A stretch of DNA of 41,841 bases. Source: Methylocystis sp. (lineage in GTDB: Bacteria; Pseudomonadota; Alphaproteobacteria; Rhizobiales; Beijerinckiaceae). Each line of letters begins with the position of its first letter. Position 1 is the stretch's first letter. The DNA lies in NCBI GenBank assembly GCA_024506175.1, contig JAMBEQ010000069.1, forward strand, positions 1-41,841, in the 5' to 3' direction. The position numbers and the translations under genes are program-made. The notes under the pieces were generated by a model, which was not told the origin of the DNA, ran no database searches, and was given only the letters and a program-made list of their open reading frames with translations. This document shows, piece after piece, positions 8,395-30,002 of the stretch.

Positions 8395-9216
8395 GTGAGG
8401 CGATCGACCAGATCTCTAGCACGAGCCGGCTCGCGCCTCGCCCTGGTCGCCCTCCTATCGTTCATGGGCCTAACCGCGCTTCCTGTTTGCGCAGGTGAGA
8501 CTCTGTCGGACCTGGCCAAGGTTTCCGCGCGACCCAACTCCGAAAGCCGCCTGCCTTTGGCCACGACTTTCACCGACCAGTTCGGCAATTCGAAGGAGCT
8601 GGGTCAAGCGCTCGATAAAAAGCCAGCGGTTCTGCTGTTCGTCGATTACGCGTGCAGGAACATGTGCAGCGCAATGGTGCTTCTCGCGAGCAACGCATTG
8701 GCGAACTCAGGCCTTGTCCCAGGCGACGAGTTCGGTCTGTTGGCGATTGGCCTTGCACCCGATGTTCGAGTCGTAGCCGCCCGGGAATTCAAGGATAGCG
8801 TCATAGACCCGGGCTCTCCGCTTTCGGCGGCGACGCAATTTTTTACCGGCGACGCAGCGGCGATCAAAAAAGTCACAGACGCGGTCGGCTATCATTATTC
8901 TCGGGACGGGGAAAATGCGCAGTTCGCTCACGCCGCCACGCTGTTCGTCATCTCCGGCGAGGGAAAGGTCATGCGCGCGATTCCCGCCGCAAACGTTGAC
9001 AGCGACTCCCTGCATGAGGCGCTCGTCGGGGCCCAGCATGGCGCAGGCGACTCGAGTTTCAATCCGATAAACCTCCTGTGCTATGGATATGCGGCCAGCC
9101 ATGGCGGCGCCAATCGCCCTGTCCGCCTCATCCTCGAGACCGCGAGCGCCGCCATGCTGATTTTCATGGCGGGGATCATTTTTCGGCTAGCGCGGCGCGC
9201 GCGCCCGATTTCGTGA
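8395..9216 (+). CDS. SCO1/SenC copper chaperone of the oxidase operon
   Basis: A 273-residue protein with a signal/anchor (LALVALLSFMGLTALPVCAG), a thioredoxin-like periplasmic domain and a C-terminal membrane helix (about 245-263). It has the standard SCO copper site: CRNMC (Cys87 and Cys91, CxxxC) and a histidine (His179) in the FAHAATLFVIS block. GTG 8395 is the best start, with TGGAGG at 8381-8386; an upstream frame to 8284 lacks a ribosome site. It is the first gene of the caa3/ACIII block, and its TGA shares a base with the ATG of subunit II, so it very probably inserts copper into CuA. It is distinct from the SCO protein at 227-925, which has CxxxxxC. Confidence 0.85.
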   Translation: MRRSTRSLARAGSRLALVALLSFMGLTALPVCAGETLSDLAKVSARPNSESRLPLATTFTDQFGNSKELGQALDKKPAVLLFVDYACRNMCSAMVLLASNALANSGLVPGDEFGLLAIGLAPDVRVVAAREFKDSVIDPGSPLSAATQFFTGDAAAIKKVTDAVGYHYSRDGENAQFAHAATLFVISGEGKVMRAIPAANVDSDSLHEALVGAQHGAGDSSFNPINLLCYGYAASHGGANRPVRLILETASAAMLIFMAGIIFRLARRARPIS

Positions 9217-10148
9217 TGGAGGGTTTCGCGCCAAAGGCCTCGTCATACGCATCCCAGTGGGATTGGTTCTTTTTTGTCCTCGTTACGGTGAGCTCGATCG
9301 TTGTCGCCACCGTATTCGTCGCGATCGTCCACTTCTCCATCCGCTATCGGAGGGGGGTGAACGCCAGGCGCGAACCTGTGTCGGAAACCTTCTCGAATCG
9401 ACTCGAGTTCAGCTGGACTGCGGGGACCGCCCTCGCATTTTTGGCAATTTTTTGGTGGGCGGCCGCATTCCAGCTACGCGATTTCGTGCCTCCCGAGGGG
9501 GCGCTCCAAATTCATGTCATTGGCAAGCAATGGATGTGGAAGATACAGCAACCAAATGGCGTTCGTGAGATCGATGAGATCCATGCGCCGATCGGCCGGC
9601 CTGTCCAGCTCATCATGACGTCCGAGGATGTGATTCACAGCATGTTTCTGCCGGCGTTAAGGCTGAAACAAGACGTATTGCCGGGCCGCTATACCTATTT
9701 GTGGTTCAATGCTGACAAGCCGGGCGTTTATCATCTATTTTGCGCGGAGTTTTGCGGGACTTCTCATTCGCGGATGACCGGCCGGTTCGTACTCATGACC
9801 CCGACCGAATATTCTCGCTGGAGCGCCGCTCAACCAGAGGCGGACAACCTCGCGAGACAAGGACAAGCGCTATTCTCCTCACTGGGTTGCTCGGGCTGTC
9901 ACTCGAAAAGCTCGAGCGTTCCCGCTCCTGATTTGCACGGGGTGTTCGGAAATCCGGTCCAGCTTTCAGACGGGAGAAGCATTATCGCAGACGAGGCCTA
10001 TATTCACGACTCTATTGTGTTGCCGGAAAAAGACATCGTCGCTGGTTTCGCGCCAATCATGCCAAGTTTCGCCGGCCAGGTAAGCGAAGAGCAAATCATC
10101 AAGCTGGTCGCCTACATCAGGTCCCTGTCCACGGAGAGACACCCATGA
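9216..10148 (+). CDS. coxB: Cytochrome c oxidase subunit II with fused cytochrome c (caa3 type)
   Basis: A 310-residue subunit II. Two transmembrane hairpin helices (about 17-40 and 67-86) are followed by the cupredoxin domain with a complete CuA site: His141, Cys176, Glu178, Cys180, His184 and Met187 (in CAEFCGTSHSRM). After residue ~210 a cytochrome c domain follows with CSGCH (225-229) and a methionine in PIMPSFAG, so this is a caa3-type oxidase that carries its own electron-entry haem. There is no cleavable signal peptide; the N-terminus goes straight into helix 1, as in other ACIII-linked oxidases. ATG 9216 overlaps the SCO stop. Subunit I starts within its last codons (ATGA at 10145). 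Confidence 0.95.
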   Translation: MEGFAPKASSYASQWDWFFFVLVTVSSIVVATVFVAIVHFSIRYRRGVNARREPVSETFSNRLEFSWTAGTALAFLAIFWWAAAFQLRDFVPPEGALQIHVIGKQWMWKIQQPNGVREIDEIHAPIGRPVQLIMTSEDVIHSMFLPALRLKQDVLPGRYTYLWFNADKPGVYHLFCAEFCGTSHSRMTGRFVLMTPTEYSRWSAAQPEADNLARQGQALFSSLGCSGCHSKSSSVPAPDLHGVFGNPVQLSDGRSIIADEAYIHDSIVLPEKDIVAGFAPIMPSFAGQVSEEQIIKLVAYIRSLSTERHP

Positions 10149-11830
10149 GCGAGACCGTTTCTGCGGCTGAGCCCGGAAAGGCGCCGGAGGAGAGCGAACA
10201 ATGCGAGAGCTACCTCGAAGCCGGCGGCCACACTTTGATGTCCTGGCTGACGACCACCGACCACAAACGCATCGGCATCCTCTACGCAATCGCGATTACA
10301 TTCTTCTTCTTCATTGCGGGTATCGCCATCGGCCTCGTTCGGCTCGAGCTGATGTCGCCGAGAGGGTTGTTCCTTTCCGACGATGAATACAATCGTCTGT
10401 TTTCGCTGCATGGCATCGTCATGGTCTGGTTCTTTCTCGTCCCGTCCATTCCCGCAACATTCGGGAATTTCTTTCTCCCTTTGATGATCGGCGCCAAGGA
10501 CGTCGCTTTTCCGCGTCTCAATCTTTTGTCTTGGTACGTTTATCTCCTGGCCGCCGGGTTTGCGTGCTATGCGATCGTCGCCGGCGGTGTCGATACGGGA
10601 TGGACCTTCTATACGCCCTTTTCATCTCTATACTCGAACGGAAATGTCCTGGCAGCGGCGGCGGGCGTCTTTGTCGCCGGATTTTCGTCGATCGCCACTG
10701 GCGTCAATTTTATAACCACCACGCATATGCTGCGGGCGCCAGGAATGACCTGGTTCAGGCTGCCGCTTTTCGTCTGGGCCATCTACGCAACGAGCGTGGT
10801 GATCGTGCTCGCGACTCCGATTCTGGCAATGTCGCTTTTGCTCATCATCGCCGAAAGGCTCTTTGGCTTGCCCGTCTTCAATCCAAATGACGGCGGCGAC
10901 CCCATCTTATTCCAGCACCTCTTTTGGTTCTACAGCCATCCTGCCGTCTATATCATGATTTTGCCGGCGATGGGCGTCATCTCCGAGGTCTTCACCTGCT
11001 TCGCACGTCGTCACATCTTCGGCTACGCGATGATGATTTACGCGATCCTCGGCATCGCCGTCATCGGTTTTTTTGTTTGGGGCCACCATATGTTTGTTTC
11101 CGGCGAGTCACAATTTGCGAATCTCATGTTCTCGCTTCTTTCCTTCCTAGTCGCAGTCCCTTCCGCCATCAAGGTCTTCAATTGGACCGCCACTCTCTAC
11201 CGCGGCTCGATCAGCTTCGAAGCGCCGATGGTTTACGCCATGGGTTTCGTTGGGCTTTTCACAATGGGAGGATTGACGGGGCTTTTCTTAGCGTCGATAC
11301 CGATCGACGTGCACGTCACCGATACTTATTTCGTGGTCGCACATTTCCACTACATCATGGTGGGCGGAAGCGTGTCCGCGTTTTTTGCGGCCTTGCACTT
11401 CTGGTGGCCAAAAATCACCGGAAAGCTCTATTCGGAAGCGTGGGCGCGCTTTGCGGCGGTGATCATGTTTCTCGGCTTCAACTCGACATTTCTGCCGCAA
11501 TATATAATGGGCTACACCGGGATGCCGCGCCGCTACCATGTTTATCCCCCCGAGTTTCAGGCTTATCATGTCCTCTCATCGATGGGCGCGCTCGTGCTCC
11601 TTACCGCCTACATGCTCCCTCTCGTCTACCTCACCTGGTCGTTGTTCCACGGCAAGAAGGCGCCAGCGAATCCCTGGCGCGCGACTGGTCTTGAATGGCA
11701 AACGCCGTCGCCGCCGCCGGAATATAATTTTGAGGAGATACCGAGGGTGGATACGTTGCCGTACGAGTACCATCCTGAGAACCAAGGCGGGCCTTTCCGG
11801 CCTCAGGGGAAAGTGATCGGCGGCAAGTGA
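10145..11830 (+). CDS. coxA: Cytochrome c oxidase subunit I, A2-type
   Basis: A 561-residue, twelve-helix haem-copper oxidase subunit. Ligands: His89 (HGIVMVWFF, low-spin haem), His265 in YSHPAVY with the His-Tyr cross-link pair (Tyr269), His314/His315 (WGHHMF, CuB), and His400 and His402 (VAHFHY, haems a3 and a). Helix VI lacks the glutamate of A1 oxidases (HPEVY) and instead has YSHPAV (263-268), the signature of the A2 subclass of proton-pumping oxidases. The K-channel lysine is present in SAIKVFNW (Lys343). It reduces oxygen to water in the cytoplasmic membrane. It overlaps coxB by 4 bases. Confidence 0.96.
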   Translation: MSETVSAAEPGKAPEESEQCESYLEAGGHTLMSWLTTTDHKRIGILYAIAITFFFFIAGIAIGLVRLELMSPRGLFLSDDEYNRLFSLHGIVMVWFFLVPSIPATFGNFFLPLMIGAKDVAFPRLNLLSWYVYLLAAGFACYAIVAGGVDTGWTFYTPFSSLYSNGNVLAAAAGVFVAGFSSIATGVNFITTTHMLRAPGMTWFRLPLFVWAIYATSVVIVLATPILAMSLLLIIAERLFGLPVFNPNDGGDPILFQHLFWFYSHPAVYIMILPAMGVISEVFTCFARRHIFGYAMMIYAILGIAVIGFFVWGHHMFVSGESQFANLMFSLLSFLVAVPSAIKVFNWTATLYRGSISFEAPMVYAMGFVGLFTMGGLTGLFLASIPIDVHVTDTYFVVAHFHYIMVGGSVSAFFAALHFWWPKITGKLYSEAWARFAAVIMFLGFNSTFLPQYIMGYTGMPRRYHVYPPEFQAYHVLSSMGALVLLTAYMLPLVYLTWSLFHGKKAPANPWRATGLEWQTPSPPPEYNFEEIPRVDTLPYEYHPENQGGPFRPQGKVIGGK

Positions 11831-11845
11831 CCAGGGGCAAGTGAA

Positions 11846-12481
11846 ATGAGCGACGATCCATCCGTGGTTCAATTTCCCTGGCCGACCGTTGCTAGACAAC
11901 GGGAGGGCGTGGCTTTTGGGATGTGGACCTTTCTCGGAAGCGAGATTCTTTTTTTCGGGGGCCTGCTTCTCACCTATGCAGTCTACCGCACGCTTTATCC
12001 CCAGGCGTTCAACTCCGGCTCTGCTGCAACCGATATTTTCTACGGCACAATCAACACAGCCCTACTGTTGACGAGCAGCTTCATCATGACCATGGCGCTT
12101 CGTGGGTCTGAAAGCGGATCGCGCGGCGTCGTTGCAGCGTGCATGTTGACCACAGCGGCGTTCGGGCTCGCGTTTTTGGCGGTCAAAGGGCTCGAATATG
12201 CCGAGGACATCGACAAGCACCTTGTGCCGGGTCCGCACTTCCCCTTGCATCCGCCGGCGCGGCTCTTCTTTGCATTCTACTGGGTTGCAACCGGAGTACA
12301 CGCGATCCATCTCCTGGTTGGAATCCTGGTGGCGGTCTTCTTGGGAATTCGAGTGGCTCTAAGACAAATGGCTCCTGAGAGCACCGCGATCGAAGCGGCC
12401 TCTCTTTACTGGCACTTCGTAGACAGCGTCTGGATCGTGCTTTACGCGCTGATCTACCTTCCAGGTCGAAGCGGCGCATGA
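11846..12481 (+). CDS. coxC: Cytochrome c oxidase subunit III
   Basis: A 211-residue membrane protein with about five helices. Typical subunit III blocks are visible: FGMWTFLGSEILFFGG near residues 24-39, GLEYAEDI, FYWVATGVHAIHLLVG and a final YWHFVDSVWIVLYALIYL. The two N-terminal helices of seven-helix mitochondrial subunit III are absent, as is common in bacterial caa3 oxidases. It starts at ATG 11846, 15 bases after coxA, and its TGA overlaps the ATG of the next gene. Confidence 0.93.
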   Translation: MSDDPSVVQFPWPTVARQREGVAFGMWTFLGSEILFFGGLLLTYAVYRTLYPQAFNSGSAATDIFYGTINTALLLTSSFIMTMALRGSESGSRGVVAACMLTTAAFGLAFLAVKGLEYAEDIDKHLVPGPHFPLHPPARLFFAFYWVATGVHAIHLLVGILVAVFLGIRVALRQMAPESTAIEAASLYWHFVDSVWIVLYALIYLPGRSGA

Positions 12482-12792
12482 CCTGGGGCGTGCTACGACA
12501 TGCGGGAGTCTGGATCCTCCTGCTTCTTCTTCTCGGCGCAACGGCCGCCAGCTCGTCTTTTGATCTCGGCGAAAATGGGGCCGTGCTTCGTCTCGGCATC
12601 GCGGGCCTGCAGGTGCTCCTCATCTGGCTCTTGTTCATGGATTTGCTCGGCTCCAGCAGTCTCGTCCGGCTTTGCGCAATCTCGGCATTCCTTTGGATTT
12701 TATTGCTCTTCGGGCTTACGTTTTCCGACTACTTCACCCGCGGTTGGAACGGGACGTCCACCCGCTACCCTGCGCGCACGGCGACATGGTGA
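12478..12792 (+). CDS. Cytochrome c oxidase subunit IV (CtaF / COX4_pro type)
   Basis: A 104-residue protein with three hydrophobic helices (about 9-26, 36-58 and 63-83), the size and topology of the small prokaryotic subunit IV of caa3 and bo3 oxidases. The family is weakly conserved, so the call rests on size, topology and position directly after subunit III with a 4-base ATGA overlap. It ends the cox part of the block; 194 bases without a gene separate it from actA, with no clear terminator, so readthrough is possible. Confidence 0.78.
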   Translation: MTWGVLRHAGVWILLLLLLGATAASSSFDLGENGAVLRLGIAGLQVLLIWLLFMDLLGSSSLVRLCAISAFLWILLLFGLTFSDYFTRGWNGTSTRYPARTATW

Positions 12793-12986
12793 GCTCGACC
12801 TACGATTTTGGATTCAGCAGCGCCAGAGCAACAAAAGCGCCGGTGGCGTCTCATAACTAAGCTTTTTCTCATCGGCCTTCTGAGCCGAGCAATAGGAACA
12901 TCTCGAGGCGAGTAACGTTTCTCAGCTTGCTTGTGTCTACCGGTTGGAGGCCCGCGTGAACGCCCACGCATGCTCGGGATCAGGCA

Positions 12987-13639
12987 ATGGCGCAGATTTT
13001 CCGGCCCTACGCAGATTCGGTCGTCCGTGTGGTGATGATTGCGATCCTCGTTCTTCCGTTTGCGATCGTCGGCGTTGCCTATGGAGTCATGTCGTCTCCA
13101 TACATTACCGGAGAGCATCTGACGCTGGAGCAGCCGGTGCCATTCAGCCACGAGCACCACGTCGGCGAGCTCGGCCTCGATTGCCGGTACTGCCACAGCT
13201 ACGTCGAAAAGTCAGCTTTTGCGGCCGTTCCGCCGACGCACACCTGCATGACATGTCATTCTCAACTGTTCACCAATGCGGAGCTGCTGGCGCCGGTGCG
13301 CAAGAGCTTTGCCGAACGCATGCCCATCAAATGGACTCGGGTTCATCGTTTGCCGGCCTATGTCTATTTCGACCACTCCGTTCACATCGCCAACGGCGTC
13401 GGTTGCTCTACCTGCCATGGCCATGTCGACCGGATGCCGCTCATGCAACAGACGGAGCCGCTGACAATGGCCTGGTGCTTGTCGTGCCACCGTAATCCCG
13501 CGGCGCATCTGCGTCCTCCGGAGGAAATCTATAACATGAGCTGGAGCCCGCCGGACAATCAGGAGCAGAAAGGTCGCAATCTGATCGAGCGCTATCATAT
13601 ACGCGTCGAACATCTTTCCGACTGCTCGGTGTGCCACCG

Positions 13640-13643
<4 letters not shown>
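12987..13643 (+). CDS. actA: Alternative Complex III pentahaem cytochrome subunit ActA
   Basis: A 218-residue multihaem cytochrome with an N-terminal signal-anchor helix (about 13-36). Exactly five CxxCH motifs are present: CRYCH, CMTCH, CSTCH, CLSCH and, at the very end, CSVCH. This number, the order and the block FSHEHHVGELGLDCRYCH identify ActA of Alternative Complex III, the quinol:electron-acceptor oxidoreductase that replaces the bc1 complex. The haem chain carries electrons on the periplasmic side towards ActE and then to the caa3 oxidase. The gene overlaps actB by 4 bases if ATG 13640 is used. Confidence 0.95.
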
Positions 13644-16473
<2,830 letters not shown>

Positions 16474-16477
<4 letters not shown>

Positions 16478-17847
16478 GCGCAGCGAACGATCCCCCGGCA
16501 GCGGTGGAGCGTTGGGTGCAGCCGGCGGCGCGCTCTTACGAGGCAGTCAACGAGCTTGTCAGCCGGCCATTGCTAAAGCCCGAAGAATTGAATTGGAAAT
16601 TCTGGTGGATTGCATTCATGGCAAGCCTTGCCGCCACGGCTTTGATGCTTGTTTGCATCTTATGGCTTTTCACAAAAGGTGTCGGACTCTGGGGCGTCAA
16701 CACCACAATTGTGTGGGGCTTTGCGATTGCGAACTATGTCTGGTGGATCGGCATCGGCAACGCTGGCACGCTGATTTCGGCGATGCTGCTGCTGATGCGC
16801 CAACATTGGCGCGCGTCGATCAACCGCTTCGCCGAGGCGATGACCATCTTCGCCGCAGGCATCGCGGGGCTTTTCCCCATTTTGCACCTTGGACGCCCGC
16901 TATATTTCTACTGGCTCGCGCCCTACCCGAACACGATGGCGCTTTGGCCTCAATGGCGCAGCGCGCTTGTTTGGGATTTCTGGGCCATCCTCAGCTATAT
17001 ACTTTTTTCGATTCTATTCTGGTACGCCGGGCTTATCCCCGATCTCGCATGCATGCGGGACCGGGCCAGAACACGCGGCGCGCGGTTTTGGTTTGGCGTT
17101 TTCGCTCTTGGTTGGCGGGGATCCGCCCATCACTGGCAGATCTACCACGTCTATCACACGACCATGGCCTGCCTTGGCGTGCCGTTGGTCGTTACCTTGC
17201 ACAGTGTCGTCGGCATGGATTTCGCGGCGAGCCTCATGCCCGGTTGGTCGGAAACCATCTACCCCCCGTATTTCGTGGTCGGGGCCATGTATTCTGGTTT
17301 CACCATGGTTATCGCGCTGGCGGCGGCCGTCCGCTGGGGCTTCTCGCTAGAGGCGCTGATCACCGTCGACCACTTCGAAGTTATGGCGAAGATATTGCTG
17401 GCTGCGTCTATCATCATGTCGCTTTCATACATGACGGAATGGTTCGGCGCCTGGTACAGCGGCGCGCACGAAGAGCGCAGCCTGGTCGCATATGAGTTCG
17501 AAGGCCATTATCGCGCGCTTTATTATGCGATGCTGTTCTGCAACTGCTTTCTCCCGCAAATCTTCTGGTTCAAAGCGGCGCGCCGCAGCATCGCCGTGGT
17601 CGTCGTCGTGGGGCTCATGATCAACATTGGGATGTGGATCGAGCGCATCAACATCGTATGGATGACATTGTCTCACGGCTATGCGGTGAGCATGTGGCGT
17701 ATCTTTCACCCGACCTATTGGGACTATCTCCTAATGTTCAGTTCGCTCGGGCTGTTCGCCTTATTGTATCTGCTCCTTTGCCGTATCGCGCCGATCGTGT
17801 CGATGCATGAAACCCGGCGGCTTCTCTCACAGGGCGCGCAGCAATGA
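16474..17847 (+). CDS. actC: Alternative Complex III membrane subunit ActC (NrfD/PsrC family)
   Basis: A 457-residue integral membrane protein with about ten helices, starting at GTG 16474 inside the actB stop. NrfD-like features include the WWIGIGNAGTLISA block near residues 90-103, HLGRPLYFYW, and the HWQIYHVYHTTMA histidine-rich segment. ActC and ActF carry the quinol sites and are thought to couple quinol oxidation to proton movement. It is followed directly by actD with an ATGA overlap. Confidence 0.94.
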
Positions 17848-18368
17848 CAAAAATGTTGCTCGCCCAATTCACCCAGCCCGAAACCATGGTCGCGGCGGCG
17901 CGCAAGAGCGATCAATTCGGTTGCAGGCTGGCGGACGCTTTCACGCCATTTCCGGTGGAGGAAATGCCGGAGCTACTCGGCGCTGATTCGACATCGCTAC
18001 GGGTCTACATGTTTTTCGGCGGCCTGATCTTTGTCGTCGCAGCCTATGCAACGGAGAGCCTAAGCGCTGTCTTTTTATACCCCATCAACAGCGGCGGACG
18101 GCCGCTAAATTCCTGGCCAACCTTTGTTCTGTTTCCTTTTGCAATCGGAATTTTTGGCGCGGCTTTGATAGGTTTTATCGTTCTGATGATCAAAACGGGG
18201 TTGCCAAGGCTGCACCATCCGCTTTTTTCCGTCGAGCTTTTGGAGCGGGCGACCCAAAACCACTTTATCCTCGCGCTCGAGCCGCCTCGCGGCGCGGCGC
18301 TGGAGGCGCGAGCGAAAGTCTGGCTCCGTGAGGCTGGAGCAGTCGAAGTCACGGAAGTCGAGATATGA
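17844..18368 (+). CDS. actD: Alternative Complex III subunit ActD (DUF3341)
   Basis: A 174-residue protein with two transmembrane helices (about 55-75 and 92-114) between soluble ends, as in the DUF3341/ActD family. The typical N-terminal block is visible as AARKSDQFGCRLADAFTPFPVEEM, and the LPRLHHPLF motif follows helix 2. Its role in the complex is structural, with no cofactor. It overlaps actC and actE by 4 bases each, so translation is coupled. Confidence 0.92.
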   Translation: MTKMLLAQFTQPETMVAAARKSDQFGCRLADAFTPFPVEEMPELLGADSTSLRVYMFFGGLIFVVAAYATESLSAVFLYPINSGGRPLNSWPTFVLFPFAIGIFGAALIGFIVLMIKTGLPRLHHPLFSVELLERATQNHFILALEPPRGAALEARAKVWLREAGAVEVTEVEI

Positions 18369-18886
18369 GCGCGCGGATCGCTTCCGCTATTCTCGGCGCG
18401 TTCTTGCTGAGCGGCTGTGGACTGAGCATGACCGAGCAGCGCAAATATAAGAACTACGACCCATCGACCTTTTGGGATAATGGCGCATCGGCGCGACCGC
18501 TTCCTGAAGGCGTCGTAGATCAAGAGGCGCTTGCGAGAGAAGCGGCATTGGCGCGGCCGCCCGTGATCAGGGCCGAGATTATGGCGCAAGGCCGCGAGCG
18601 CTACGAAATTTTCTGTGCGCCCTGCCATGGCTTGGCGGGCGATGGCGACGGCCTCATCGTCAAGCGTGGCTTCCCCGCTCCGCCCTCTTATCATTCGGAG
18701 CAACTTGTCAACGCGCCGGCGCAACACTTCGTAGACGTCATCACGAGCGGCTATGGCGTGATGTATTCGTACGCGGACCGCGTCGCGCCCGCTGATCGGT
18801 GGGCGATCGCCGCCTATATCCGCGCTTTGCAGCTGTCGCGGCTTCCTGCGGCAGCTTCCCAGCTGCGGCAGGGAGCGAAACAATGA
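18365..18886 (+). CDS. actE: Alternative Complex III monohaem cytochrome c lipoprotein ActE
   Basis: A 173-residue lipoprotein. A lipobox LLSGC ends the signal sequence at Cys18, so it should be anchored to the periplasmic face of the membrane. One haem c site (CAPCH) is followed by GLAGDGDGLIVKRGFP, and a methionine in GYGVMYSYADRV is the likely sixth ligand. ActE is the probable exit cytochrome of ACIII that feeds the cytochrome c domain of oxidase subunit II (family knowledge and inference). Overlaps with actD and actF are 4 bases each. Confidence 0.94.
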   Translation: MSARIASAILGAFLLSGCGLSMTEQRKYKNYDPSTFWDNGASARPLPEGVVDQEALAREAALARPPVIRAEIMAQGRERYEIFCAPCHGLAGDGDGLIVKRGFPAPPSYHSEQLVNAPAQHFVDVITSGYGVMYSYADRVAPADRWAIAAYIRALQLSRLPAAASQLRQGAKQ

Positions 18887-20004
18887 GCGTTCAGGTTTCC
18901 GCGAGGCCTAAACGCCGTGCCGCAGGGGGTGGCGAAAAGGCGCCAATGACTCCGGAGACAACGTCGCCCCCGCCGCGAACTCGCGCTCTGTTTTTATTGC
19001 TTATCCTGGGCGCGGCGCTCGGTTTCGCGGGGATGGTCGCTTTTTTGATCTTCTTGCCGCACGAGGCCGCAGGAGGATGGCTGGCGGGTTTCGTATTCTG
19101 CAGCAGCGCCACGATCGGCAGCGTCTTCGCTCTCATGATCCATGCGCTCACCGGCGGCCGCTGGCTATCGGCGTTCAGCGACATATTCGCCGCCGCAGCA
19201 GCCGCCACCCCCGTTTTAGGCCTTCTGTTCATTCCGGTTCTCGTGTTCCTTCCGCATTTTTATCCCTGGGCGGCAAACACACACCCGCCTCCCGAGGACG
19301 TGCGCAGCCTGTATTTGAACGCGCCTTTTTTTGTAGGCAGATCGGTCGGGGCGTTGTGCTTCTGGAGCTTCCTGGGCATTCTTCTGCCGCGGCTCGAGGG
19401 AGGCCGAAGAGTGCTGGCGGGGGCAATCGGCCTGACAATTCATGCCTTCATCATCGGGCTGATCGGCGTCGATTGGATCCTGTCGCTGCAGCCGGAATTC
19501 TGGTCGAGTTCCTTCGGCGCGACTTTGGCTTTCACGCAATTCGCTGCAGCGCTCGCTTGGGTCGCGGTCGTTTCGCCGAGAGAGCGCGACGCCATGGCAA
19601 TCGGCGATATCGGCGGCCTGCTCCTCGCGACGCTTCTGGGCTTGCTCTACCTGAACTTCATTGCTTTCCTGGTGACCTGGTATGGAAACATACCGGATCG
19701 AGTATTCTGGTTCTCCTTCCGCGAAAGGTGGCCGTGGATGCTGATCGTCTGGCTGACTTTCGTCTTTGGTTTCGTTGTTCCTATATTTTTGCTTTTTCTA
19801 AAACGCATTCGCTCGAGCCGCCTGGGGATACGTTTGGTCGGCTCCGTAACGCTTGCAGGCATAGCCCTCTACTACGCTTATTTGATCTTGGCGCCATTTG
19901 GCGCGCTCTCGCTCGGCGCGGGCGCTCTTGCAACAATCGCAATGGGATGCCTGCTGGGAGCGCTCACGCTTGCGCCCCGTTGGCGACCACGCTTGAACGA
20001 GTGA
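18883..20004 (+). CDS. actF: Alternative Complex III membrane subunit ActF
   Basis: A 373-residue membrane protein with about ten helices, preceded by a Lys/Arg/Pro-rich cytoplasmic tail of ~40 residues (SARPKRRAAGGG...TSPPPRTR). Family blocks seen are FLPHFYPWAA, NAPFFVGRSVGALCFW and FLVTWYGNIPDRVFWF. ActF resembles ActC without its quinol site and is placed last in the conserved operon. ATG 18883 overlaps the actE stop (ATGA) and is the obvious start; an upstream in-frame ATG at 18799 would lie inside actE. Confidence 0.93.
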   Translation: MSVQVSARPKRRAAGGGEKAPMTPETTSPPPRTRALFLLLILGAALGFAGMVAFLIFLPHEAAGGWLAGFVFCSSATIGSVFALMIHALTGGRWLSAFSDIFAAAAAATPVLGLLFIPVLVFLPHFYPWAANTHPPPEDVRSLYLNAPFFVGRSVGALCFWSFLGILLPRLEGGRRVLAGAIGLTIHAFIIGLIGVDWILSLQPEFWSSSFGATLAFTQFAAALAWVAVVSPRERDAMAIGDIGGLLLATLLGLLYLNFIAFLVTWYGNIPDRVFWFSFRERWPWMLIVWLTFVFGFVVPIFLLFLKRIRSSRLGIRLVGSVTLAGIALYYAYLILAPFGALSLGAGALATIAMGCLLGALTLAPRWRPRLNE

Positions 20005-23335: not shown

Positions 23336-23767
23336 ATGGAAAACACCCGATCAATTCCCGATATCGTCGCAGACGTCATGCGACAAGCTTCGACCTTGAT
23401 GAGGGCGGAAGCCGGCTTGGCCCGCGTCGAAATCTCCGAGAGCCTGGACGCCATCGGAAGCGGCCTCGGAATGCTCATCGTTGGGGCCATGCTTATCATC
23501 CCTGGTCTCGCGCTGGGATTGCAGGCCTGTGCGGCCGCAGCCATGGCGGCGGGGCTTGCCGACTATTGGTCGCTGGCCATCTTCGGCGGCGGCGCGTTCA
23601 TCATCGGAATCGTGCTGGCGATACTTGGGCGCCAACGCATGAGTTCTTCCAAACTGAAACCTTCGAAGACCATCGACGAGCTCAACCGAGATATGGCGAT
23701 GGCACGCGATGTGGCGACGACAAAGCAACAGGTGGGACCGACACATGCAACGCAGCGCGCAGCTTGA
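23336..23767 (+). CDS. Phage-holin-family (DUF1469-like) membrane protein
   Basis: A 143-residue protein with an amphipathic N-terminal half (IVADVMRQASTLMRAEAGLARVEISESL) and two adjacent transmembrane helices (about 44-68 and 75-100), the layout of the Phage_holin_3_6/DUF1469 family. Despite the name these are chromosomal stress or envelope proteins; there are no phage genes around. AAGGAG at 23325-23330 is a strong ribosome site for ATG 23336. It opens a five-gene operon and overlaps the next gene by 23 bases. Confidence 0.78.
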   Translation: MENTRSIPDIVADVMRQASTLMRAEAGLARVEISESLDAIGSGLGMLIVGAMLIIPGLALGLQACAAAAMAAGLADYWSLAIFGGGAFIIGIVLAILGRQRMSSSKLKPSKTIDELNRDMAMARDVATTKQQVGPTHATQRAA

Positions 23768-24431
23768 GAGCGAGGCCAGCAGGGCCCGGGCAGAGCTTAA
23801 GAACTCGATCGAGGAGCTTCGTACCAGCATGTCTCCATCCAATGTTTTCGACCGGCTGAAGACGAGGCAACAGGAGGCCGTCGGCGACTTCGCCAAGAAT
23901 GTCGGCCAGAACGTGCGCGACAACCCGTGGCCTTACGCCTTGGCCGGCCTGGCGTTGGCGGGGTTCGTTGCGAGACGGATGTCCCGCGAATCGAACGAGA
24001 GCGAGTTGAGAGAGCGCCTGGAGCGCCTCCTGGGCGACCGGGAGGATCTGAGCGATCGGATAAGCCGGATGGCCAGAGCCGCGCGCTCGGGCGTGCAGTC
24101 GGCGAGCGATTGGGCGAGCGATCAGCTGGAGAACGTCGAAGTCGAGAGCGATTCCGGCTTCCTGGGTTTTGTCAGGCGACATCCCTTATGGTCCGTGGGT
24201 CTAGGACTGGGGATCAGCGCGGCGGCGGCGGCGTGGCTGCCAAGCAGCCTAAGGAGCCGCTGGTCGATCGAGAAAGCGAGAGAAAACGTGGCCGAGACGG
24301 CGGAGGCAATTGCCCGTGTGGCGCGTGCGGAAACGCCTCAGGCTGAGCAAACGATTACGCCAGCGGCCGCGCCAAGCGCTACGAGCGCGGGCGTCACGTC
24401 GCCCACAGGCGACGGCTCTTACACACGATGA
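23745..24431 (+). CDS. DUF3618-like membrane-associated protein
   Basis: A 228-residue protein. The N-terminus SEASRARAELKNSIEELRTSMSP is the DUF3618 pattern, then an amphipathic helical stretch leads to a hydrophobic helix (about residues 64-78) and a heptad-like acidic/basic helix (about 83-118). A second hydrophobic segment (about 143-166) and an Ala/Pro/Thr-rich tail follow. ElaB/YqjD-like and DUF3618 proteins often sit beside DUF1469 genes. ATG 23745 lies inside the preceding gene, and the stop overlaps the next gene by 4 bases (ATGA), tying the pair to the dehydrogenase genes downstream. Confidence 0.75.
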   Translation: MQRSAQLESEASRARAELKNSIEELRTSMSPSNVFDRLKTRQQEAVGDFAKNVGQNVRDNPWPYALAGLALAGFVARRMSRESNESELRERLERLLGDREDLSDRISRMARAARSGVQSASDWASDQLENVEVESDSGFLGFVRRHPLWSVGLGLGISAAAAAWLPSSLRSRWSIEKARENVAETAEAIARVARAETPQAEQTITPAAAPSATSAGVTSPTGDGSYTR

Positions 24432-25405
24432 GCGAGAGGCGACCTCGCGACAGGGCTTCCAAGCTCCTCGGCGCGGTCGCACTCGGCCTATCATCGGCTG
24501 AAATGATCGAGATCGCCCGCCGAGGGGCGCCGCAAGCGCCGAGCGCGCCGCCGCCCCCAGGCCCCCCCGCCGGCAAGGGCATGTTGCAGGCCTCGGCGGC
24601 GCTGCTTGCCGCCTCGGTGCTCGTCGACAGCGCGATCGAACATTATCGCGGCTCTTTCAGGAACCCGGGCATGTACGTCCCGCTCCTCAGCTCGACGCTC
24701 GCGCTGCTGTCGGGCGTGGAAGGCGCGGCGACGGGCTCGGAGCCGGCGTGGCGGCCAGTCCGTCGAAGCTCCTACAAAATGGCCGTCGCGGTGGGCGCTG
24801 TCGGAACAGCATTCCATTTCTACGACATCTTCCGCCGGCCGGGAGGCTTCGGCTGGCTGAATCTGTTTTATGGGGCGCCGCTCGGAGCGCCACCCGCCCT
24901 GGCGGTGTCCGGCCTGCTCGGCCTTTGCGCCGAGGAGCTCCAGAACGCCCCCGACGGCTCAACGAAGCTGAGAGGCTTTTCGGCCGGTCGCGTCATCGCC
25001 GCGCTGAACGCCGTAGCGTTCGCCGGAAACGTCGCGGAGGTCGCGCTTCTTCACTTCAGGGGGGCGTTTCAAAATCCCTTCATGTGGGCGCCCGTGGCTC
25101 TTCCGCCCGTCGCTTCCGGCCTCATGGCGAAGGCCGCAGTCGAGCCCCCCGCCAAAAGCTACCCGCTGACGCGGATCTGGCTTTGGCTGACAACGGTGTT
25201 GGGCTTCGTGGGAATGGGCTTCCACGCCTATGGCGTCTCGCGCGCCATGGGCGGATGGCGGAACTGGAGCCAGAACGTTCTGGACGGCCCGCCCTTGCCT
25301 GCGCCGCCGAGCTTCTCGGCCCTGTCGGTCGCCTCGCTTGCGGCGGTCGGCCTATTGGAAGAGGAGGCGCGGGACGCCCTCCCGGAGGACAAGGCGGCGG
25401 CATGA
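24428..25405 (+). CDS. Internally duplicated membrane protein of unknown family
   Basis: A 325-residue protein with about 6-8 hydrophobic helices; I do not recognise it. It is made of two similar halves: residues 58-171 and 195-313. HYRGSFRNPGMYVPL (72-86) matches HFRGAFQNPFMWAPV (209-223), GAVGTAFHFYDI (123-134) matches GFVGMGFHAYGV (259-270), and APLGAPPALAVSGLLGL matches PPLPAPPSFSALSVASL. A histidine is conserved in each block (His72/His209, His130/His266). It overlaps the DUF3618-like gene and the dehydrogenase small-subunit gene by 4 bases each. It takes the place where other GMC dehydrogenase operons have a cytochrome c subunit, so a membrane anchor, possibly with cofactors, is inferred. 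Confidence 0.7.
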   Translation: MSERRPRDRASKLLGAVALGLSSAEMIEIARRGAPQAPSAPPPPGPPAGKGMLQASAALLAASVLVDSAIEHYRGSFRNPGMYVPLLSSTLALLSGVEGAATGSEPAWRPVRRSSYKMAVAVGAVGTAFHFYDIFRRPGGFGWLNLFYGAPLGAPPALAVSGLLGLCAEELQNAPDGSTKLRGFSAGRVIAALNAVAFAGNVAEVALLHFRGAFQNPFMWAPVALPPVASGLMAKAAVEPPAKSYPLTRIWLWLTTVLGFVGMGFHAYGVSRAMGGWRNWSQNVLDGPPLPAPPSFSALSVASLAAVGLLEEEARDALPEDKAAA

Positions 25406-25995
25406 AGTCTCCCTACCCCGGATACGATGTCCTCGAGAAATGGAACTCCCCCTCCTTCGACGACCGGACGCGCGCGGCGCTTTCCGGGCGGCTTCATGAC
25501 ATTCCGCCGCGGCGGTTCTTCACTGAAGAACAACTCGCTGCGCTGGAGGCCATCGTCGACCGGCTGGTCCCTGCTTTCGCGGGCAGGCCGCCGCCGATCG
25601 CGCTGTGGCTAGACGAGCGTCTATTCTTCAATCAGGGGGAAGGATTCCGTCACGAAAGCGAACTGCCGCTGCAAGAAAGCTGGCGCATCGGCATATCGGC
25701 GATCGACGGCGAGGCTCGCCGCCGCTTTTCCCGCGGCATGGCCGAGCTGGACCGTGATTCCAGGGACGAGGTTCTGCGCGCAGTCCAGAAAGGCGACGTC
25801 GACAAAGACCTCTGGCCTGGCGTCTCCGCCTCCGGCTTCTTTTCGAACGCATTGCTCAAAATGGCGGTCGGGCTCGTCTATTCCCATCCCTCCGCGTGGA
25901 ACGACATCGGATTCGGCGGTCCGGCGAGCCCGCGCGGCTATGTGCGTATCGGCTTCGACGAGCGTGACGAATGGGAAGCAAAGGAAGTCAGATGA
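25402..25995 (+). CDS. Gluconate 2-dehydrogenase subunit 3-like small subunit
   Basis: A 197-residue protein that resembles the small (gamma) subunit of flavoprotein sugar dehydrogenases: RRFFTEEQLAALEAIVDRLVPA near residues 37-58, then an RRRFSRGMAELDRDSRDEVLRAVQKG helix and a SNALLKMAVGLVYSHPSAWNDIGFGGP ending. In glucose and gluconate dehydrogenases this subunit carries a twin-arginine signal and helps export and fold the flavoprotein. Here the N-terminus (MKSPYPGYDVLEKWNSPSF) has no such signal. It is locked between its neighbours by 4-base ATGA overlaps. Confidence 0.82.
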   Translation: MKSPYPGYDVLEKWNSPSFDDRTRAALSGRLHDIPPRRFFTEEQLAALEAIVDRLVPAFAGRPPPIALWLDERLFFNQGEGFRHESELPLQESWRIGISAIDGEARRRFSRGMAELDRDSRDEVLRAVQKGDVDKDLWPGVSASGFFSNALLKMAVGLVYSHPSAWNDIGFGGPASPRGYVRIGFDERDEWEAKEVR

Positions 25996-27629
25996 GCTTC
26001 GAGCGCCCGCGCGCCACGAACGGCCGGGCGCCCGATCCATTCACCATCGGCGGATGGACGCCGATGCGTGAATATGCGGAAGGAGAACCGGTCGACTTCC
26101 TCATTGTCGGGGCGGGCGCCGGCGGAGCGACGCTCGCCTGCAAGCTTGCCGAGAAAGGCTTTTCCGTCGTTGTCTTGGAAGCGGGGCCGTTCTGGCGTCC
26201 TTTGGAAGATTTCGCCTCCGATGAACTCACCCAGGAAGTCGTTTACTGGATCGACGATCGCATCACCGCAGGCGACGACCCGATCGAATTGGGCGGCAAC
26301 AACTCGGGCCGCGGGGTCGGCGGCTCGACGATCCATTTCAGCATGATCTCACTTCGGTTTCGCCCTGAGTGGTTCAAGTCGCGCAGCAAGCTCGGATATG
26401 GCTTCGACTGGCCCCTCTCGTACGAGGAGCTGGCGCCCTATTATGAAGAAGCGGAGGACGCGCTCAAGGTCTCCGGGCCGGTGAACTATCCTTGGGGACC
26501 GCCGCGCCGGCGCTATCCTTACCGGCCGCATCCGGTCAACGCCGCCGGCCTTGTGCTGGCGCGCGGCGCGGAAAGGCTCGGCGTCAAATGGGCGCCGATT
26601 CCGCTCGCGACCGTATCTGCGCCGCGCGGCAAGTCGCCGCCCTGCGTCTATAGAGGGTTTTGCAACTATGGCTGCTCGACAAACGCCAAGCAGAGCGCCC
26701 TGATCACCTGGATTCCTCGCGCCTTGCACGCCGGCGCGGAGATACGAGACCTCGCGATGGCCGGGCGCATCGAGACCGACCCTAAGGGGCGCGCGCAAGG
26801 CGTCGAATACTTTCGGGAGGGAGGCTGGCGGTTTCAGCGCGCGAAAAACGTGGTTGTCGCCGGCTATGCCATCGAGACGCCGCGCCTTCTTCTCAACTCC
26901 GCCTGCCCGCGCTTTCCGAATGGCCTCGCAAATGGCTCGGGCCTCGTCGGCACGCATTTGATGACTCACGCAGGCCCGGGCGCCTGGGCCACATTCGAGG
27001 AGGAGATTCGCTGGTACAAGGGTCCGCCCAACATGGCCGTGACCGAGCATTGGAATTATACGGACGAAGGCAAGGACTTCGTCGGCTGCTATTCTTTCAT
27101 GAGCCAAGGCCCCTTGCCGATGAAATGGGCGCAGACCGTCGCGACGTCACGCGGTTTTTGGGGCGAAGAGCTGCAGCGCGAGATGCGCAAATATAACCAT
27201 ATGGCCGGTTTCGTTCCAGTTGCGGAAACCCAGCCCAGGCAGCAGAACCGCGTCGAGCTCGCCGACGAGAAGGACCGCTTTGGACTGCGCATCCCGAAAG
27301 TGACGTTCTCTTATTCGGACAATGACAAGCGCTTGCAGAAGCACTCCGTGCGATTCATGTGCGATGTTCTGGACGCGGCAGGCGGCTACGACATCTGGAC
27401 CAACTATCAGGACACGAGTCACATCCTCGGGACATGCCGGATGGGCGATAATCCGGAGACCAGCGTCGTCGACGGCGACGGCCGCAGCTGGGACATTCCT
27501 AACTTATGGATCTGCGACGGTTCGATTTTCCCAACCTGCGGCGGCGTTAATCCTTCGCTGACCATTCAGGCGCTCGCCTGCAGGGCTGCGGACCGCATCC
27601 AATCTCTCGCAGCCGCCGGCCGGCTTTGA
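25992..27629 (+). CDS. GMC-family FAD dehydrogenase (catalytic subunit)
   Basis: A 545-residue GMC oxidoreductase. The FAD-binding motif is DFLIVGAGAGGATLACKLAEKG (35-56), with a second FAD contact in GGNNSGRGVGGSTIHF. The C-terminal block GTCRMGDNPETSVVD, a histidine just before it (His477) and GGVNPSLT (Asn520) give the His/Asn catalytic pair. PPCVYRGFCNYGC places Cys218, Cys224 and Cys228 with C-x5-C-x3-C spacing, matching the [3Fe-4S] ligands of FAD glucose dehydrogenase. No signal peptide is present. The likely substrate is a sugar, aldonate or polyol (inference). It ends the operon, convergent with a hydroxyacid dehydrogenase gene. Confidence 0.9.
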   Translation: MSFERPRATNGRAPDPFTIGGWTPMREYAEGEPVDFLIVGAGAGGATLACKLAEKGFSVVVLEAGPFWRPLEDFASDELTQEVVYWIDDRITAGDDPIELGGNNSGRGVGGSTIHFSMISLRFRPEWFKSRSKLGYGFDWPLSYEELAPYYEEAEDALKVSGPVNYPWGPPRRRYPYRPHPVNAAGLVLARGAERLGVKWAPIPLATVSAPRGKSPPCVYRGFCNYGCSTNAKQSALITWIPRALHAGAEIRDLAMAGRIETDPKGRAQGVEYFREGGWRFQRAKNVVVAGYAIETPRLLLNSACPRFPNGLANGSGLVGTHLMTHAGPGAWATFEEEIRWYKGPPNMAVTEHWNYTDEGKDFVGCYSFMSQGPLPMKWAQTVATSRGFWGEELQREMRKYNHMAGFVPVAETQPRQQNRVELADEKDRFGLRIPKVTFSYSDNDKRLQKHSVRFMCDVLDAAGGYDIWTNYQDTSHILGTCRMGDNPETSVVDGDGRSWDIPNLWICDGSIFPTCGGVNPSLTIQALACRAADRIQSLAAAGRL

Positions 27630-27632
27630 TCC

Positions 27633-28907
27633 TCAGCGAGTCAGGAACTCGGGCCCGAGCGCAGCGAGCGAATTCACGCCCAACAGACCCATGTCGCGAT
27701 CGATTTCCTCGCGCAATATCTGAATAGCGCGGTCCACGCCCTCGCGTCCGGCAGCCGCCAATCCATAAAGCGTCGCGCGTCCCAGGAGCACGGCGTCCGC
27801 TCCAAGGGCGACGCCTTTCAATATGTCCGTCCCCCGCCGCATTCCCCCATCGACGATGAGCGTCAGCCGATCGCCGACGCGCCGGCGCGCCTCGGGCAGC
27901 GCGTCGAGTCCCGAAATCGTCCAGTCGAGCTGCCGACCGCCATGGTTGGAAAGGATGACGCCGTCGGCGCCGATCTCCGCCGCGCGTTGGATGTCGCCGA
28001 CGTTCAACAATCCCTTTATCAAAAGCTTTCGCGGCCATAACGATCGAATTTTGGACATTTCCTTCCAGTCGAGCGCGTAGTCCATATGGCCGCGGATCCA
28101 GAAGGCGCTTGCGAAAAAGCTTCGGTGCTCTTCGGGCACGAAGTCGATAACATTCGCGAAAGACGGCAGGCCCTGCTGCAACGTCGTCGCGATCCAGCCA
28201 GGATGAAAAATCGTTTCAAGAATAGATGCGAGCGTCGGCTTGTTTGATGGGGTGAGCCTCCGCGTCTCCCATTCGCGGTTCCCGTAGAACTGGGTGTCGA
28301 CGGTGACGACGAGCGCTTCGCAGCCAATCTTCTCAGCGCGGGCGATGAGCGCGTTTCGTACGTCGGGGCCTCCGAAGACATAGAGCTGCCACCAATGCCT
28401 CAAGCCCGGAATGCGCGCGATTTCTTCCATCCGGTCATTCGACATTGTGCTTTGGATGAAGGGAATGCCCGCTTCCGCCGCAGCTTCTGCGAGGAGAAAG
28501 TCCGCCTTATGCCTGAACAGTCCGTTCAGCCCTGTCGGCGCGATAGCGAAGGGAAGCGGCGTCTGTCTGCCGAACAGCTTCACGCTTTGATCTCTGTGGC
28601 GGACGTCGACAAGCGCGCGCGCGAGCAGCCGGTAGCTCGCGAGCGCGGCGCGATTGCGTGCGAGAGTCGCCTCTTCTTCGCTTCCTCCCTCGAGATATTC
28701 GATGGCGAAAGGCGGCAGCCTGCGGTGCGCCATTGCGCGCAAGTCTTCGATAGTTCGAACGCGCTCGAGATTGAAGCCCCTGTAGTATCGGCGCCCTGGC
28801 GACCCTTTGAACGTCGCCGGAGACGGGTTGAGCCGAGCCCCTGTCGCGCTTGCCTCCACAGAGTCTTCGACGCTTCGGGGGAGATTAGTTGTCGACTCGG
28901 GGCTCAT
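27633..28907 (-). CDS. FMN-dependent alpha-hydroxyacid dehydrogenase (LldD/mandelate-DH-like)
   Basis: A 424-residue TIM-barrel flavoenzyme. Family motifs are PFAIAPTGLNGLF, WQLYVF, the FMN lysine in KLLIKGL, the active-site SNHGGRQLD with His and Arg, and VDGGMRRGTDILKGVALGADAVLLGR. A region around residues 225-270 (FHPGWIATTLQQGLPSF) corresponds to the membrane-binding insert of quinone-linked L-lactate and mandelate dehydrogenases, so it probably feeds the quinone pool. It oxidises a 2-hydroxyacid to a 2-keto acid; the exact substrate is open. It lies three bases downstream of the lactonase gene on the same strand, suggesting that the lactonase product is its substrate. Confidence 0.88.
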   Translation of the reverse strand: MSPESTTNLPRSVEDSVEASATGARLNPSPATFKGSPGRRYYRGFNLERVRTIEDLRAMAHRRLPPFAIEYLEGGSEEEATLARNRAALASYRLLARALVDVRHRDQSVKLFGRQTPLPFAIAPTGLNGLFRHKADFLLAEAAAEAGIPFIQSTMSNDRMEEIARIPGLRHWWQLYVFGGPDVRNALIARAEKIGCEALVVTVDTQFYGNREWETRRLTPSNKPTLASILETIFHPGWIATTLQQGLPSFANVIDFVPEEHRSFFASAFWIRGHMDYALDWKEMSKIRSLWPRKLLIKGLLNVGDIQRAAEIGADGVILSNHGGRQLDWTISGLDALPEARRRVGDRLTLIVDGGMRRGTDILKGVALGADAVLLGRATLYGLAAAGREGVDRAIQILREEIDRDMGLLGVNSLAALGPEFLTR

Positions 28908-28910
28908 CGC

Positions 28911-29837
28911 CTACTCGTCGGCAAAGAGAAAGGGCGGCGTTCCCGTCACGCCTGGGCGGCAACGAAAAATGCCGCCGGCATGAGGCTCGCTGCCAGGGGC
29001 GAGGCCGTGCGCAGCCGTGGTGATGTAGAGCGCGTCAAAATCCCGGTCTCCGAAGGCGCACATCGTCGGCTGGCTGACGGGCAATCTGATTTCACGCTCG
29101 ATTTTCCCATCGGGGGCCATACGAACAATGCGGCCGCCGCCATAGAGCGCGCACCAGTAAAAACCTTCGTTGTCGACCGCAGCTCCGTCCGGCCTGCCCT
29201 CCGCATCTTTGAAAGTCGCGAAGATGCGGGACCCGGAAATGCTTGCGGTCTGCAGATCGAAGTCGAACTCCTTGATCTCCTGCGCCGGTGTATCTGCGAA
29301 GAGCATGACGTCGTTTGCAGGGCTCCAAGCGATCCCGTTGCCGATGACTGCGGTCGCAGGCCTTTCTCTCAACCCTTCCGCTTCCGTGAAAACATGAATT
29401 GGGCGCGCAGTAGCCCTCGTTTCTTGCAAGGGGTTGTGCAACGGATCGTACATCGTGGCGACCCAGAATCGTCCGCGAGCGTCGCACTTTCCTTCGTTAA
29501 AGCGGTGTGTGAGCGGATTGTACGGCGGCGAAGCCAGAAGCTCGATGGAGGCAGAATCCAGCGCAAGCCGCACGAGACCGGTTCGCAAAGCCCCAATGAC
29601 CCGTCCGCTTTTGCAAAGCGTGAATGCGCCGATTTGACTCAGCATTTCCCAGCTCAAATCCTCGCCGCTTTTGGGATCGAAGCGATGCAATGCAGGTTCC
29701 TCGATGTCAATCCAGTACAAAGCTTGTTCGCGTGGGGACCACGTTGGACTTTCTCCCGTTTGTGCATGGGCGTCGAGAACAAGCTCCACTGCGTCAGGGC
29801 TCAAATCGCGATCCGACCGCATGCGCCGCTTCCTCAT
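28911..29837 (-). CDS. SMP-30/gluconolactonase family lactonase
   Basis: A 308-residue six-bladed beta-propeller of the SMP-30/LRE family. Metal ligands typical of SMP-30 can be placed: Glu in TGESPTW, Asn in VIGNGIAWSP and Asp in GRPDGAAVD. RFNEGKCDARGRFWVATM is the other strongly conserved block. The enzyme hydrolyses a sugar lactone to the aldonic acid. I prefer ATG 29837; a frame extending to 29924 adds an Arg-rich stretch not expected for the family, and ATG 29822 is also possible. It forms a two-gene unit with the hydroxyacid dehydrogenase. Confidence 0.88.
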   Translation of the reverse strand: MRKRRMRSDRDLSPDAVELVLDAHAQTGESPTWSPREQALYWIDIEEPALHRFDPKSGEDLSWEMLSQIGAFTLCKSGRVIGALRTGLVRLALDSASIELLASPPYNPLTHRFNEGKCDARGRFWVATMYDPLHNPLQETRATARPIHVFTEAEGLRERPATAVIGNGIAWSPANDVMLFADTPAQEIKEFDFDLQTASISGSRIFATFKDAEGRPDGAAVDNEGFYWCALYGGGRIVRMAPDGKIEREIRLPVSQPTMCAFGDRDFDALYITTAAHGLAPGSEPHAGGIFRCRPGVTGTPPFLFADE

Positions 29838-30002
29838 TTCCAGGCAACCCTGCTCTGGAGCCACGAAAATAGGGCGTCGCCAGCGCCGATCATCCCTGGG
29901 TGCTAGCGAGCGCGAGCGCCGCAAGCTTCGTTCGAGATTCGGAACCAGCGGAAGCGCGTTGCGTTAGCCTATGGCGGAGTGGCAGCGCGAAAGCTTTTCA
30001 AG

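Follow-up and report, generated by a model that had tools for sequence, protein, structure and literature searches.

Evidence for a non-canonical GMC dehydrogenase module with a duplicated partner protein in Methylocystis sp.

The fructose dehydrogenase complex of Gluconobacter (PDB 7w2j) is periplasmic and contains a tri-haem c subunit. Enzymes of the type of Burkholderia cepacia glucose dehydrogenase (BcGDH; alpha-gamma-beta, PDB 6a2u/8grj), which are studied for glucose sensors, are likewise described in excerpts of PMC6719666 as periplasmic and dependent on a haem-c subunit. Here, we report on a gene group of Methylocystis sp. (assembly GCA_024506175.1, contig JAMBEQ010000069.1) that encodes a dehydrogenase of the same flavin adenine dinucleotide (FAD)-dependent glucose dehydrogenase type with a new partner family. 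The window, i.e., the whole stretch of DNA analysed, is 41,841 nt long and belongs to a genome marked as that of a methanotroph by an AMO/pMMO gene. Five genes, designated A to E, are of interest:

23336..23767, + strand: gene A, Phage_holin_3_6 small membrane protein (PF07332, E-value 1.7e-22)
23745..24431, + strand: gene B, DUF3618-like protein (PF12277, E-value 9.2e-5, 23.0 bits, just under the cut-off of 24.9)
24428..25405, + strand: gene C, family-less protein with two repeats and four invariant histidines, proposed membrane electron-transfer anchor
25402..25995, + strand: gene D, Gluconate_2-dh3 (gamma-like) small subunit (PF13618, E-value 3.6e-15), without signal peptide
25992..27629, + strand: gene E, GMC FAD dehydrogenase catalytic subunit (GMC_oxred_N/C; PF00732, E-value 1.5e-20, and PF05199, E-value 5.2e-27), without signal peptide

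An earlier, sequence-only reading of this DNA had described five overlapping genes, and a check of coordinates and junctions bore this out. A and B overlap by 23 bases, and ATGA junctions join B to C (at 24428), C to D (at 25402), and D to E (at 25992); an in-frame ATG at 25971 provides a second possible start for E.

The conserved system consists of three genes, C, D, and E, and not of five. A search of genome contigs with C revealed 18 genome loci (locus numbers are preceded by L, and genome numbers by G). C, D, and E were found together in 17 of these, while the remaining contig (L010) ends inside D; the contigs of L019–L021 start inside C. D directly follows C in 12 of the 17 loci, and a gene for a thiamine-diphosphate enzyme lies between them in the other five (L009, L011, L013, L014, and L016). 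Six further genomes with C (G243, G292, G529, G827, G864, and G901) have D and E adjoining it in every case. Among plasmids, 116 records encode an E-like protein (E-value <= 1e-50), and C lies no more than 0.9 kb from E in all 22 records in which E identity is at least 59.8% (13 of the 22 were viewed with annotation, and the other nine as positions of C and E only). As C accompanies D and E in at least 16 named genera, chance open reading frames (ORFs) are excluded, and C is conserved next to the GMC genes, as the sequence-only reading had required.

The C-D-E module is rare, patchy, and often plasmid-borne. With the Methylocystis genome itself included each time, C is present in one of 199 genomes of the order, four of 385 genomes of the class, and five of 398 genomes of the phylum; the one sampled genome of the same genus is without it. 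C and E above 60% identity occur in the same four of the 385 genomes of the class. The total number of plasmid records with any C match (E-value <= 1) is 27, four of which carry a divergent or half-size C beside an E of 43–47% identity (Granulicella, Frondihabitans, and two Deinococcus). Another of the 27 holds a decayed fragment, in Methylocystis sp. MJC1 (L045:4025-6294); this plasmid has kept the thiamine-diphosphate gene and the fragment of C, D and E were not found in 12 kb, and transposase genes lie nearby. A metagenome-assembled genome of Caulobacteraceae has one C followed by two tandem D-E pairs (L008:4637-9344).

Homologues of A and B were not found by tblastn at any of the 18 genome loci, in six of which (L013, L015, and L018–L021) the sequence upstream of C is shorter than 0.7 kb, nor were they found at the C-D-E loci identified later. 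PF07332 matches occur in 10 of 16 genomes examined, the Methylocystis genome included, and in three genomes with comparable contigs (G243, G292, and G529) they lie on contigs other than that of C. In the window ORFs scanned (sets of 9, 9, and 10 proteins, not every ORF), Pfam named no phage family besides that of gene A. The five-gene unit was rejected, A and B not being conserved with C-D-E, and the proposal that holin-like and DUF3618-like proteins are parts of an electron-transfer module is not supported; relatives often carry a thiamine-diphosphate and/or an enolase-superfamily enzyme upstream of C instead. A and B are read as local passengers that probably share a transcript with C-D-E.

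Judging by its sequence, protein E belongs to the FAD-glucose/fructose dehydrogenase group of GMC flavoproteins and has a putative [3Fe-4S] cluster. Its closest relatives in the PDB are the glucose dehydrogenase 6a2u (E-value 6e-57) and the homologous large subunit of the fructose dehydrogenase 7w2j (E-value 4.5e-56). The candidate cluster ligands are encoded within E:

26643..26675, + strand: C-x5-C-x3-C motif (Cys218, 224, and 228), proposed [3Fe-4S] ligands by alignment to BcGDH

These cysteines align with the [3Fe-4S] ligands Cys212/218/222 of BcGDH, and His477/Asn520 align with its catalytic His476/Asn519, the BcGDH residue roles being those given in excerpts of PMC6719666. The motif is present in all E homologues compared except the truncated one of L004. 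In this locus, from Methylocystis silviterrae, the GMC gene (9344-10000) matches over its first 127 codons only and has an internal stop. D has the PF13618 match listed above, and the gamma subunit of BcGDH is of this same Gluconate_2-dh3 type. The alignment and the match uphold the assignment of E as a GMC subunit with a C-x5-C-x3-C motif, paired with a subunit-3-like partner, and extend the likeness to BcGDH to FAD, the cysteine triad, the His/Asn pair, and the type of small subunit.

The differences from BcGDH are the missing twin-arginine translocation (Tat) signal on the small subunit, the missing cytochrome c beta subunit, and the missing disulphide cysteines; C is present instead. The module likewise has no counterpart of the tri-haem c subunit of the Gluconobacter enzyme. 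No hydrophobic segment was found in the D or E of the window. The scan of other loci started from the start codon nearest the conserved N-terminus (the YPGYDVL motif in D, and the vicinity of PRAxxGRAPDVF in E), six loci without C being left out. No RRx[FL] motif was found near this start in 33 D and 32 E proteins, and no hydrophobic N-terminus in the 33 D proteins, whose hydropathy values did not exceed 0.76; the two highest values for E were 1.46 (L042) and 1.39 (L041). The D and E proteins checked are without export signals, as first noticed in the window, and D acquires no Tat signal from any alternative start close to its conserved N-terminus. The D of the window contains no cysteine (those of relatives have some), and in E the first ligand is not followed by a second cysteine, the position being Val219 here and V, M, A, or I in C-bearing relatives. 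In the excerpts of PMC6719666, the corresponding BcGDH Cys213 forms a disulphide with the gamma subunit; in the window, with no cysteine in D and no Cys213 equivalent in E, an inter-subunit disulphide of this type cannot form.

The C, D, and E proteins of loci that carry C showed no CXXCH motif. ORFs of at least 120 amino acids with at least two CXXCH motifs (single-haem proteins fall outside this count) occur in seven of 34 loci and are not conserved: three encode ActA of Alternative Complex III (L015, L033, and L034), two lie beside a second GMC gene of 27–28% identity (L018 and L021), and the remaining two are one gene in two Methylocystis loci (L006 and L031). Thus, no multi-haem c-type cytochrome is conserved nearby, in keeping with the proposed absence of a cytochrome c subunit, though a subunit encoded at a distance was not searched for. 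Taken together, the data support a non-canonical GMC dehydrogenase without a Tat/Sec signal or a cytochrome c subunit and with a new, duplicated, and co-conserved protein C.

Protein C produced no match of credible strength in Pfam, NCBIfam, PHROGs, PDB sequences, or phage records. A C profile reached E-values of only 0.12–0.14 against PDB sequences, and Fumarate_red_C matched one of 16 C proteins marginally (E-value 0.098). Among the matches listed by a literature search at the level of titles and abstract openings, with few subscription journals covered, there was no treatment of C or of the C-D-E cassette. The duplicated nature of C was confirmed by hhalign, which aligned repeat 1 with repeat 2 at a probability of 99.4% (E-value 1.8e-21, 32% identity over 111 columns). 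Four histidines are invariant in all 28 C proteins of an alignment that leaves out partial or divergent C (L019–L021, L040–L042, and L045) and L055–L061:

24641..24643, + strand: His72 codon, end of helix 1, repeat 1, in EHYRGxFxNP
24815..24817, + strand: His130 codon, late in helix 3, repeat 1
25052..25054, + strand: His209 codon, end of helix 5, repeat 2, in LLHFRGAFQNP
25223..25225, + strand: His266 codon, late in helix 7, repeat 2, in GFHAYG

Both histidines of a repeat are kept in 24 of 24 repeat copies, half-size homologues included (the set comprised 10 C proteins, the Granulicella protein, and two half-size proteins). Glutamates near the histidines are also conserved (E71 in 26 of 28 proteins, and E204 in all 28). 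An AlphaFold model of C, obtained with a 16-row alignment (pLDDT 82.5, pTM 0.81), has eight long helices, about four per repeat; the histidines lie close to the C-termini of helices 1, 3, 5, and 7. If all eight helices cross the membrane, these same-end positions would place all four histidines on one side. In the model, invariant histidine pairs are predicted on helices n and n+2 of each repeat, with moderate hydropathy. Histidines paired in this way, at a similar depth, are the b-haem-binding pattern of other membrane cytochromes.

Deinococcus sp. AJ005 and Frondihabitans have half-size homologues of C (154–156 amino acids) next to D and E, and Granulicella has a two-repeat form. In a tree of repeats, the two repeats of the Granulicella protein cluster with the half-size homologues (support 99), which is most simply explained by two fusions. 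Beside the half-size C of Deinococcus sp. AJ005 lies a gene for a VKOR-like protein of 129 amino acids (L042:4161-4547; E-value 6e-6, just under the cut-off), which is not a C homologue. In a tree of 35 GMC proteins with a midpoint root, which leaves out E fragments shorter than 400 amino acids (L004 and L023–L025) and in which L029 and L030 were viewed with flanks of ca. 1.5 kb only, the 26 proteins accompanied by full-length C form one group (100/100). The three with a half-size or Acidobacterial C join this group (95/87), and the six without C fall outside. Distances among C, D, and E correlate across 23 loci (r 0.67–0.84); for C and E, r is 0.67 and was reached in none of 2000 permutations.

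Two genes facing E in the window are probable pathway partners:

27633..28907, - strand: gene F, flavin mononucleotide (FMN)-dependent 2-hydroxy-acid dehydrogenase (PF01070, E-value 2.7e-120)
28911..29924, - strand: gene G, lactonase of the SMP-30/gluconolactonase family (PF08450, E-value 1e-72)

SMP-30 lactonases are also encoded near C-D-E in L005, L006, L009, L011, L013, L014, L016, L031, and L057, and FMN 2-hydroxy-acid dehydrogenases in L005, L006, L008, L014, L018, L031, and L037. The thiamine-diphosphate gene lies within a few kb of C in all nine plasmid loci L031–L039, in all four loci L055–L058, and in 11 of the 18 loci found in genomes, where the contig often breaks off. The enzyme of L031 scored 1042 bits against the cut-off of 724 of NF006129 (PRK08273), with pyruvate oxidases next. 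An enzyme of PRK08273 type in the window's own genome is encoded on another contig (L050:13394-15181), without C, D, and E. Other recurrent neighbours encode a member of the enolase superfamily (closest in NCBIfam to L-talarate/galactarate dehydratase, with 197 bits against a cut-off of 500), a short-chain dehydrogenase/reductase, and a GH15 hydrolase (best match trehalase, under the cut-off). The lactonase, the acid-sugar-dehydratase-like enolase, the FMN 2-hydroxy-acid dehydrogenase, the thiamine-diphosphate enzyme, and the GH15 hydrolase fit a route from sugar to lactone, sugar acid, and 2-oxo acid. A gene of the 'sensory rhodopsin transducer' family, possibly a sugar-responsive regulator or binding protein, also recurs near cassettes (L033:4085-4462, L037:5646-6023, L042:7708-8094, L052:4736-5107, and L061:2661-3023).

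Genes for respiratory enzymes recur in the vicinity as well. Upstream of the dehydrogenase genes, the window contains (9078-20004) genes for an aa3-type oxidase and Alternative Complex III, the latter set comprising an ActA-like pentahaem cytochrome c, the Fe-S protein ActB, NrfD, ActD, and a mono-haem cytochrome c. COX1, COX2, or Alternative Complex III genes were seen close to the cassette in 10 of 34 loci, in three of four further plasmid loci, and in the window. From a background of 58 COX1 matches in 13 genomes (ca. 50 Mb), about 0.25 matches are expected in the 210 kb made up of 12 loci and the window; three were seen (L005, L017, and the window; Poisson 0.002).

We lean toward a reading in which C-D-E is a membrane-attached, cytoplasm-facing FAD/[3Fe-4S] sugar dehydrogenase that passes electrons through C to quinone. 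E would oxidise a sugar, or a sugar-like hemiacetal, to a lactone in the cytoplasm, and electrons would pass from FAD to the [3Fe-4S] cluster and on to C. C would be an eight-helix membrane protein whose two histidine pairs (one in each repeat, on its first and third helix and at a similar depth) hand electrons to quinone, and the quinone would be reoxidised by Alternative Complex III or a terminal oxidase, encoded near the cassette in the window and several loci. Electron delivery to quinone is plausible, and we infer the membrane insertion of C, the quinone, the haem, and the substrate. The fumarate reductase subunit FrdC of W. succinogenes, a diheme cytochrome b, offers an analogy only, in the order of flavoprotein, Fe-S protein, and paired-histidine membrane protein; C has no demonstrated sequence homology to FrdC, and haem in C is only proposed. 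The authors of the BcGDH study likened their own complex to fumarate reductase (excerpts of PMC6719666). A wider claim, which we put forward tentatively and hold to be doubtful as a whole, is that C is the founding member of a new family of membrane proteins for electron transfer. Its four-helix, two-histidine unit would have been duplicated and fused at least twice independently (in the Proteobacterial/D. peraridilitoris type and the Granulicella type), would bind two b haems or quinone, and would allow GMC dehydrogenases with a [3Fe-4S] cluster to feed respiration from the cytoplasmic side with no need of a cytochrome c subunit.

Several results weigh against this cytoplasm-facing reading. 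The helices of C are only moderately hydrophobic (mean best 19-residue Kyte–Doolittle value 1.0–1.5), and positive-inside counts fix no topology. The membrane character that the sequence-only reading gave to C was retained as probable, with hydropathy speaking for it only moderately. The closest structural neighbour of C found by VIA-align is a tandem four-helix metalloprotein, 3d19, with a Z of 11.8 (rmsd 4.2, 235 aligned) that is within the chance range for helical bundles; 3dby follows at 11.0, and the next row at 8.5. A D profile matched no PDB sequence, and the predicted fold of D did not match the solved gamma subunit. Most E proteins in the GMC tree were found through C, so the purity of the C-bearing group is partly a matter of sampling; the oxidase link was noticed before it was tested, which makes its statistic post hoc; and in L007 and L012, the available flank holds none of the partner genes searched for. 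Part of this evidence would suit a different role for C, as a metal-binding or structural four-helix bundle (ferritin-like, DUF2935-like) that holds or matures D-E, with another acceptor (a soluble carrier, oxygen, or quinone itself, the direct acceptor ascribed to AlkJ and BetA). The two folds come from Bacillus cereus, 3d19 under the title conserved metalloprotein and 3dby under that of uncharacterized protein; both are of the DUF2935/ferritin-like type, and the 3d19 target is soluble. The moderate hydropathy and the glutamates near the histidines (E71 and E204) would agree. However, the likeness of C to 3d19 is one of tandem helical-bundle shape with no sequence match, Foldseek with the C model found nothing in the PDB below an E-value of 0.001, and there is no DUF2935 among the Pfam matches of the scanned C proteins. 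Moreover, the half-size homologues have clearer hydrophobic peaks (2.0 and 2.3), and the Gly/Pro-rich conserved loops are, in our judgement, unusual for ferritin-like bundles. We regard this role as unlikely.

Export of D and E after all, through a cryptic signal or via C, with the enzyme working like its classical periplasmic counterparts, is less likely still. Known members of the D and E families are periplasmic in the excerpts of PMC6719666, the twin-arginine signal is described in excerpts of PMC10924467 as quite widely conserved in the small-subunit family, and, as the positive-inside analysis fixes no side for C, its conserved face could be periplasmic. On the other hand, none of the 33 D and 32 E proteins has an RRx[FL] motif, D hydropathy stays low throughout, the BcGDH inter-subunit disulphide cannot form, and the partner enzymes are, in our judgement, of cytosolic types. 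A five-gene module, in which A, B, and C jointly stand in for the cytochrome subunit, is the least credible arrangement and we consider it highly improbable: in this genome, each of the five genes overlaps the next and they are probably translated together, but the other C-D-E loci searched have no A or B homologue, and PF07332 matches in G243, G292, and G529 are on other contigs.

If the cytoplasm-facing reading of C-D-E is true, a cytoplasm-side version of the dehydrogenase with a dedicated membrane partner would be an added, unrecognised entry into the quinone pool. It would raise the question of the role of the 'hitchhiker' small subunit in a system without export, and would give a function to plasmid 'hypothetical proteins' of Caballeronia, Paraburkholderia, Burkholderia, Rhizobium, Nitrobacter, Komagataeibacter, and Deinococcus. 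For Methylocystis, it would suggest a methanotroph that oxidises sugars inside the cell.

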